Assembly (NCBI RefSeq): GCF_037126175.1 | Contig: NZ_CP146986.1 | Coordinates: 992,001-1,056,000 of the forward strand | Length of the DNA: 64,000 nucleotides | Source: Pseudomonas sp. RSB 5.4 | GTDB lineage: Bacteria; Pseudomonadota; Gammaproteobacteria; Pseudomonadales; Pseudomonadaceae | Direction: 5' to 3' | Shown here: positions 29,731 through 31,197 of the stretch, piece after piece | Position numbering within the stretch: position 1 is the stretch's first letter | Layout of the letters: every line of letters begins with the position of its first letter | Notes under the pieces: model-generated | Seen by the model: the letters and a program-made list of their open reading frames with translations, nothing else | Told to the model about the DNA's origin: nothing | The model's database searches: none | Program-made: the position numbers and the translations under genes

Positions 29731-30270
29731 TGTGGGAGCTGGCTTGCCAGCGATGGCGGTCTACCAGCCGACCAACCTCCCACCTGAATGCACGCATTCC
29801 AACTGTGGGAGCGAGCCTGCTCGCGAAAGCGGCCTCACAGTCGACCAGTCCCTGACTGAATGCACTCGATCAAATGGTGGGAGCTGGCTTGCCAGCGATG
29901 GCGGCCTCCCAGCCGACCAACCTCCCACCTGAATGCGCGCATTCCAACTGTGGGAGCGAGCCTGCTCGCGAAAGCGGCCTCACAGCTGACCAATCCCCAA
30001 CTGAATACACTCGGTCAAATGGTGGGAGCTGGCTTGCCAGCGATGACGGCTCACAAGCCGACCAACCTCCCACCTGAATGCACGCATTCCAACTGTGGGA
30101 GCGAGCTTGCTCGCGAAAGCGGCCTCACAGTCGACCAATCCTTGACTGAATGCACTCGGTCAGATGGTGGGAGCTGGCTTGCCAGCGATGACGGCCTACC
30201 AGCCGACCAATTCCCACCTGAATGCACTCAATCCAACTGTGGGAGCGAGCTTGCTCGCGAAAGCGGTCTG
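29731..30270. repeat. Tandem REP array, four copies of a 145-bp unit carrying two REP types
   Basis: REP type 1 (GTGGGAGCTGGCTTGCCAGC) starts at 29732, 29877, 30022 and 30167, exactly 145 bp apart. REP type 2 (GTGGGAGCGAGCYTGCTCGC) starts at 29805, 29950, 30095 and 30239. Each REP is an imperfect palindrome, and both types face the same way. The spacers (around CACCTGAATGCACGCATTCC and CTCACAGTCGACCA) are also conserved, so whole 145-bp units have been amplified in tandem. Open frames through this array are REP translations, not genes. No REP-associated tyrosine transposase is present in the window. Confidence 0.93.
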
Positions 30271-30455
30271 CCAGACGACATCAAAACTACAGGAGCAATC
30301 CCGGTTCTCCACACACACCATAAACGCATCTCTGCAGCCACGTTTAAAGTACACGAACCGTTACGCCATACAGGCTACAACGCCTTGCGCCGTTACCTAC
30401 GCGTACGCCAGAATCCGCCGGCTTACACGACTATGGGTCGGGCTATATCGTTTCC

Positions 30456-30685
30456 CTGTCACTGAAAATCAGTGATCGGGTTTGGTAGCCCGTTTCTAAG
30501 TGTGATGGCGACACCGTGTGCAGTCCCTTTTCAGGGGCTCGATTTTATGGTGGCCATGCGTGGGGCTCCTTCGGGAGCGCCGGGTTTTCCTGCTTAGACC
30601 GGTCTACCAACCCGCGTATGGCCACCACCCTCGTTTGGTAGCGAGAGTGATGGCTCCTTACTTTTGCTAAGCAGGAGCTTCATCC
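30456..30685 (+). ncRNA. Candidate structured cis-regulatory leader RNA of the DUF6124-type gene
   Basis: The 230 nt before the gene at 30686 are densely structured. An opening hairpin pairs 30460-30465 with 30469-30474. Two short hairpins have different stems but the same loop TTTGGTAG: CGGG/CCCG at 30477-30492 and CTCG/CGAG at 30630-30645. Each is followed by GTGATGGC. Between them a 16-bp helix (30549-30564 with 30611-30626, two G-U pairs) encloses a GCTCC-TTCG-GGAGC hairpin. The enclosed loop also carries CTACCAA (30604-30610), complementary to both TTTGGTAG loops, and TCCTGCTTAG (30588-30597), a perfect complement of CTAAGCAGGA (30667-30676) that contains the AGGAG ribosome-binding site. 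This suggests a pseudoknot or switch controlling translation. A weak promoter (TTACAC, then CTATAT near 30443) could start it near 30456. I could not name a known RNA family. Confidence 0.75.
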
Positions 30686-31057
30686 ATGTTCAAAGCCACA
30701 CCCAACCCCCCAGACACCTCGATCCCATACGACCCAGCCCTCGACCCGCAGAAGATAAAAGCGGCAACTGACCGTGCCATCAACTTCTACCTCAACCCCG
30801 GCGCCCTGAAGATCTCGATCCCTTCAACCTCGTCATGCAAGGCGAACAGAATCTTCCTCATCGACCCCACCGTGGACGAAGAAACCTTGCTCGTCGAAGC
30901 CTGCGAGTCATTAGCCGCCGCCAGTGACATGGCCCGTGATATCGGCGACACCGTCGACCACTCGCAACGCCGGGCCATGCTGATGCTGCATCAGGTGATC
31001 ATGCTCAGTGAACTGATGGTCAACCGGGTACTGGACGGCCGCCGCGTGCCGAGCTAA
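30686..31057 (+). CDS. DUF6124-type hypothetical protein (first copy)
   Basis: Small cytoplasmic protein of 123 residues with no signal peptide or membrane segment. It resembles the DUF6124 (formerly DUF3077-like) family common in fluorescent pseudomonads, whose role is unknown. The N-terminus is Pro-rich (residues 1-25). It is followed by a helix (KIKAATDRAINFYL), a variable linker and a helical C-terminal half with the pattern TLLVEACESLAAASDMARDI...AMLMLHQVIMLSELMVNRVLD, which it shares with the next gene. AGGAG sits 8 nt before the ATG but is complementary to a loop of the leader RNA, so translation may be switched. A long inverted repeat follows the stop. I cannot assign a function; the shared helices suggest a small oligomeric or partner-binding protein. 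Confidence 0.85.
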   Translation: MFKATPNPPDTSIPYDPALDPQKIKAATDRAINFYLNPGALKISIPSTSSCKANRIFLIDPTVDEETLLVEACESLAAASDMARDIGDTVDHSQRRAMLMLHQVIMLSELMVNRVLDGRRVPS

Positions 31058-31069
31058 CTGCCCGGTCCC

Positions 31070-31156
31070 CTGTAGGAGCTGCCGAAGGCTGCGATCTTTT
31101 GATTTTGTTTTTCAAGATCAAGATCAAAAGATCGCAGCCTGCGGCAGCTCCTACAG
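31070..31156. repeat. Long inverted repeat (CTGTAGGAGCTGCCG family), probable bidirectional terminator
   Basis: Arms begin CTGTAGGAGCTGCCG and end CGGCAGCTCCTACAG; the inner parts GGCTGCGATCTTTTGAT and its complement extend the pairing to about 30 bp per arm with few mismatches. This is a REP class distinct from the GTGGGAGC type elsewhere in the window. It separates the two DUF6124-type genes and probably stops or protects the upstream transcript. Confidence 0.85.
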
Positions 31157-31197
31157 GTCATCATTCATTCAAAGTACGTCGATCGGAGTTCCATCTG

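Follow-up and report, generated by a model that had tools for sequence, protein, structure and literature searches.

The leader of a DUF6124 gene in Pseudomonas sp. RSB 5.4 carries an antisense RNA cassette of the C4 family, which very probably controls translation of this gene through a released C4 RNA that would pair with two leader sites, a2 and b2, and which is part of a set of 28 cassettes in the same genome. The window, i.e. the whole stretch of DNA analysed, is 64,000 nt long and comes from a genome of 6.24 Mb in one contig (G000, the own genome below).

We found that the leader RNA matches two Rfam families, C4 antisense RNA (RF01695) and c4-a1b1 (RF03163), with scores (Table 1) above the gathering scores of 45 and 46.7, respectively; hence, the view of a preceding sequence-only reading, that this RNA is not of a described family, was given up. 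These are the only gathering-level matches in a scan of the whole window, and both lie in the leader. No riboswitch family is among them, so that the scan gave no support to a metabolite riboswitch. The elements of the sequence-only reading map onto the C4 scheme, with the first hairpin as a1, the second hairpin as a2, CTACCAA as a', TCCTGCTTAG as b' and the ribosome-binding region as b2. In agreement with membership in RF01695, a' complements a2 over 7 nt and b' complements b2 over 10 nt, both perfectly. RF03163 has 26 matches in the own genome, 9 of them above cutoff.

Table 1. Features of the C4 cassette and its neighbourhood (positions in the window).
Feature	Position	Strand	Basis or remark
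Putative promoter, TTACAC-N17-TATCGT	30423..30451	+	17-nt reading by eye; scoring picked CTTACA-16-TATATC, one base off
c4-a1b1 element RF03163, 5' hairpin and a1 hairpin	30445..30496	+	Rfam, 51.5 bits
a1 hairpin, loop TTTGGTAG at 30481-30488, complements a'	30477..30492	+	letter check
b1, TCTAAG, complements b' in part	30495..30500	+	sequence pairing
C4 antisense RNA RF01695	30543..30632	+	Rfam, 82.4 bits; model R1, alignment A2
b' loop of C4, perfect complement of b2	30588..30597	+	letter check
a' segment of C4, complements a1 and a2 loops	30604..30610	+	letter check
a2 hairpin, loop TTTGGTAG at 30634-30641	30630..30645	+	letter check
b2, overlapping Shine-Dalgarno sequence	30667..30676	+	letter check
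DUF6124 gene, 123 aa, presumed target	30686..31057	+	PF19619, 6.2e-18, 64.9 bits, cut-off 27
Second DUF6124 gene, without own C4	31198..31557	+	Pfam, 80.8 bits

The pairings that had been read from the letters were all recovered. A letter-by-letter check found the loop of the same-loop hairpin pair, TTTGGTAG, twice in the window, and likewise GTGATGGC, the repeat after the hairpins (starts 30502 and 30647). The long helix joins 30549-30564 to 30611-30626 by 16 bp (14 Watson-Crick and 2 G-U), CTACCAA, which is complementary to the loops of both hairpins, occurs four times in the window as a 7-mer, and the sequence of the first hairpin (30477-30488) is able to pair with 30604-30614. The anti-ribosome-binding segment is indeed a perfect complement of b2, and the wider pairing of 30588-30599 with 30660-30680 was calculated at -17.2 kcal/mol. 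Two elements are additional to the sequence-only reading: b1, with which b' can also pair, and a short stem, GGCTCC/GGAGC, that partly masks the Shine-Dalgarno sequence in some cassettes.

The fold of the leader (30445-30700) beats 200 of 200 dinucleotide shuffles (z -5.99). Its minimum-energy form contains the C4 stem and lacks the 30588-30597/30667-30676 pairing. Co-folding of C4 with the start of the mRNA gained only ~0.6 kcal/mol over the separate folds and gave no a or b pairing, because nested co-fold programs allow no kissing loops.

Among related loci, the pairings are kept while their letters vary, i.e. they covary. Hence, translational control is the best reading: the structure exists, it extends to the ribosome-binding site of the DUF6124 gene, and its pairings survive changes of letters. 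This part of the earlier proposal, a translational switch ending at the ribosome-binding site, stands; its purely cis-acting form is less likely, and analogy with the family points to a released antisense RNA as the probable agent.

Linkage of C4 to DUF6124 was evaluated with loci collected by protein without use of C4 (the best 80 of 192 DUF6124 matches, from named genomes). We found a C4 in the same orientation at 79 of these 80 loci, 46-98 nt ahead of the matched stretch; L154, with none there, is the sole exception. The own genome has 28 C4 matches above cutoff, ahead of DUF6124 (22), DUF3077 (2) or other small ORFs (4), and the 24 domain matches to DUF6124 and DUF3077 lie 87-226 nt from C4 on the same strand. 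At loci L012, L036, L037 and L038, the ORF after C4 is 95-106 aa long and matches no Pfam family at a meaningful score. Of the 28 DUF6124 matches in the own genome, six lack a C4 directly upstream, and four of these six are the second gene of a pair, as in the window.

Many copies per chromosome are common in the genus. C4 is present in 54 of 59 Pseudomonas genomes (53 above cutoff), with a median of 17 and a maximum of 54 per genome, and 37 of the 59 have at least 10 copies. DUF6124 is found in 47 and DUF3077 in 45 of these genomes, and the C4 count follows the combined count of the two gene types with a Spearman coefficient of 0.93 (59 related genomes, so the P-value is not literal). Some genomes combine many C4 with few such genes, e.g. 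G009 (38 C4, 2 DUF6124 and 8 DUF3077). In the wider phylum, C4 occurs in 35 of 249 genomes, with up to 16 candidates scored per genome; a more distant member has three tandem C4 matches ~700 nt apart (G111:C237:13851-15365).

The gene at 30686 was correctly assigned as DUF6124-type (Table 1). Comparison with 26 relatives gave dN/dS values of 0.10 to 0.24, and comparison with three own paralogs gave 0.11 to 0.19. Hence, 30686-31057 is a real gene under purifying selection. The predicted structure of the protein (pLDDT 72.8, pTM 0.46) is confident in the C-terminal helical hairpin and poor in the N-terminal half; Foldseek with this model gave no PDB match at E <= 0.001 (best 1.5), and the protein of the second window DUF6124 gene has no sequence match in PDB. 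Profile comparisons were too weak to establish homology between DUF6124 and DUF3077 (E 0.047, probability 1.1), between DUF6124 and the group of four other small cassette proteins (E 0.0071, probability 5.5), or between DUF3077 and that group (E 0.011). One own protein without C4 upstream (G000:C1:653216-653416) matches the Pfam models of both DUF6124 and DUF3077. Among 76 predicted cassette proteins from two genomes, a sample that includes some wrong-frame picks, 51 have a PxPP motif within their first 14 residues. Between the two DUF6124 genes lies a long palindrome, REP-like by eye (31067-31159); MIR matches at 31068-31158 derive from it, are below Rfam gathering scores and were dismissed. 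Upstream of the cassette (29800-30280), repeated GTGGGAGCGAGC and GGGAGCTGGCTTGCC units are also REP-like by eye.

In the own genome, the address of each C4 points mainly to the gene that it belongs to and has two parts, ~7 nt of a and ~6 to 10 nt of b. Cognate b'/b2 pairs averaged -11.67 kcal/mol and non-cognate ones -7.26 kcal/mol (0 of 10000 permutations), and the cognate b2 was the best partner of b' in 16 of 28 cassettes; b'-b1, a'-a1 and a'-a2 were likewise better in cognate than in non-cognate combinations. With a alone, the cognate leader was best for a'-a2 in only 3 of 28 own cassettes, because a codes are common to several cassettes.

The two parts together identify the partner. Using exact complementary runs on model-aligned loops in four genomes, we found that the cognate C4 ranks alone at the top of the a+b matches to its leader for 25 of 28 cassettes in G000, 46 of 52 in G049 (47 with slightly different a' borders), 33 of 41 in G036 and 36 of 41 in G019, or 140 of 162 pooled, with 156 of 162 best or tied. 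Cognate pairing exceeded permuted labels in 20000 of 20000 permutations in each genome; the four may share cassettes and are thus not independent. Runs of a >= 6 and b >= 7 were found in 19, 33, 27 and 28 cognate pairs of G000, G049, G036 and G019, versus 0 of 756, 0 of 2652, 5 of 1640 and 3 of 1640 non-cognate pairs, respectively. Nearly every b loop is distinct (28/28, 52/52, 40/41 and 41/41 in the same order). In 25 of the 28 own cassettes, b' and b2 of the same cassette are complementary over 6 nt or more; pairing of b is weak or absent (<6 nt) in 3 of 28 own cassettes, 9 of the 79 protein-collected loci and 10 of 52 in G049. Corroborating the code, the 79 loci, reduced to 37 distinct b loops, have a mean cognate run of 7.16 versus 3.95 (0 of 20000 permutations).

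The codes differ even between close copies. Four near-identical own paralogs with a common a code (L014, which is the window locus, L016, L020 and L026) are 93-96% identical in the a1 hairpin region, C4 body, a2 region and gene start, versus 42% in b1, 64% in b' and 46% in b2; the linker from b1 to C4 is also divergent (65%). For non-cognate pairs of the own genome with the same a, b matches fell below permuted labels (1 of 20000). The direction was the same and not significant in G049 (2130), G036 (2380) and G019 (1541 of 20000 each), so there is a sign of selection against cross-talk that is significant in the own genome only. Low cross-talk alone does not show selection, because divergent random loops also rarely cross-match. 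We hold as tentative, with the scales tipping slightly against it, the fuller picture of tens of mutually insulated C4 switches per Pseudomonas chromosome with private two-part addresses that selection keeps distinct after duplication. If true, this would be one of the largest natural orthogonal antisense RNA sets, guarding a DUF6124/DUF3077 multigene family whose members could be released one by one.

Code and coding sequence have had separate histories. When 27 coding sequences were placed on a tree, species labels formed clusters (15 changes versus 20.84 when shuffled, 0 of 200), in contrast to b types (18 versus 18.07). Gene conversion or module exchange would fit this pattern. The own locus L016 and the syntenic locus of P. 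parakoreensis (L138) have a common b type, and syntenic P. koreensis L140 carries another. Hence, codes are also replaced in place, and the idea that a locus keeps its code found mixed support.

By the mechanism that we favour, a single transcript would start at a promoter near 30423-30451 and span a1-b1, C4, a2-b2 and the gene. The C4 segment would be cut out of the leader, probably by RNase P as in P1/P7; pairing of a' with the a2 loop, and of b' with b2, would then cover the Shine-Dalgarno sequence and block initiation of the DUF6124 gene at 30686 in the P1/P7 manner. Each cassette presumably has its own promoter just upstream, and the spacing of the best-scoring -35/-10 pair is 17 nt in 23, 16 nt in 4 and 18 nt in 1 of the 28 own cassettes (counts without a shuffled control). 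A purely cis-acting switch, in which a1, a2, b1, b2 and the C4 segment rearrange within one transcript and no RNA is released, would account for all pairings lying in one transcript region, for the pairing of a1 and b1 with C4, and for the intrinsic Shine-Dalgarno stem of at least 5 bp in part of the cassettes (own genome 14 of 28, 778 of 20000 permutations; G049 30 of 52, 35 of 20000). We consider it unlikely, since the C4 fold itself is conserved to family level and C4 is reported, in the available text of PMC5320573, to arise by processing of a longer RNA in P1/P7 and in A. baumannii. Own C4s begin with ATGG in 27 of 28 cases and end with GCCACC in 24 of 28, which fits a processed RNA without proving it. 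The cassette also resembles a type I toxin-antitoxin module, with a small protein that would harm the cell, an antisense RNA over the start site that would hold it off, and many dispersed copies. Known type I toxins are mostly hydrophobic peptides shorter than 60 aa. The protein here is 123 aa long, with a predicted helical hairpin and a disordered N-terminal part, and PADLOC gave no match for either window DUF6124 protein; such a module is thus quite improbable.

Phage-type and satellite-type C4 cassettes bear on the other two explanations. In G049, which also has DUF6124 cassettes, C4 lies upstream of Bro-N antirepressor-like genes at L327 and L356. These differ from the DUF6124 cassettes in their phage-type target and make up 2 of 52 cassettes by Pfam, with the other 50 scanned in part. 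The L356 protein (G049:C1:6040387-6041376) starts DUF6124-like (MIKVTPNPPE) and continues with a Bro-N domain, as a chimera of chromosomal and phage-type target. At L043, L048, L054 and L068 there are satellite-like operons, in which C4 is followed by ORFs of 52-54 aa and 94-95 aa, DUF3077 and a primase-like protein. The chromosomal set is likely derived from phage or satellite C4 operons. That the set is an immunity library, directed at phages or satellites that carry matching a2-b2 sites, DUF6124 genes being secondary, would suit these cassettes and the role of C4 as the immunity RNA of P1/P7 (PMC12197685, available part), and phage targeting is one option proposed for A. baumannii C4s in the accessible portion of PMC5320573. 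It is nevertheless very unlikely: own C4s match their own gene, and the a codes of viral and chromosomal C4s gave it no support. Specifically, a' is TCGCCAACC in 55 of 90 viral-contig C4s, a biased sample picked by exact arm sequences, and C4s beginning with TCGCCAAC number 0 of 28 in the own genome, 0 of the 79 DUF6124-linked and 3 of 52 in G049. The same phage-type and satellite-like loci in other Pseudomonas genomes could also mark the cassettes as decaying prophage or satellite remnants without present function, which we regard as highly implausible given intact ORFs under purifying selection, a and b complementarity kept in most cassettes, and few or no hits among phage or plasmid records. 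By tblastn, the second window DUF6124 hit 1 of 50,697 phage records, at the record end beside prtR, and 0 of 72,556 plasmid records. Among viral contigs, 36 loci encode a relative; 28 of these are within 3 kb of a contig end and may be host flank.

As far as literature searches tell, the DUF6124-linked, many-copy, individually addressed C4 set is new, the RNA family itself being known. These searches, mostly without subscription journals, returned no paper on DUF6124, no paper titled on Pseudomonas C4, and a single paper for DUF3077. C4, known as a phage immunity RNA, would here act from the chromosome, in many copies, as a layer of control whose address code can be read, and this code makes concrete predictions of which C4 silences which gene. 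It would also give a first handle on the regulation of DUF6124 and DUF3077, and the cassette set, with its many ready-made antisense pairs, allows a test of how duplicated antisense RNAs avoid cross-talk.

Compared with the C4 scheme and RNase P processing of P1/P7, as given in the available parts of PMC5320573 and PMC12197685, the window cassette has the same fold, the same order (a1-b1, C4, a2-b2, gene) and a b' that covers the ribosome-binding region. In P1/P7, C4 is released by RNase P as a small RNA of ~77 nt and its target is repressed in trans. The target there is the phage antirepressor operon in the phage genome, whereas here it is a DUF6124 gene, and C4s of the window type occur as dozens of dispersed copies per genome with differing codes. 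The closest precedent, on the accessible text of PMC5320573, is A. baumannii AB5075, whose group 1 comprises 21 similar C4-like sRNAs in one genome that differ in the pairing loop and are apparently processed from longer transcripts. That text leaves their targets open and assigns them no downstream target of their own, whereas here each C4 has a partner in the leader of the gene that follows, a candidate answer to the role of many-copy C4 RNAs.
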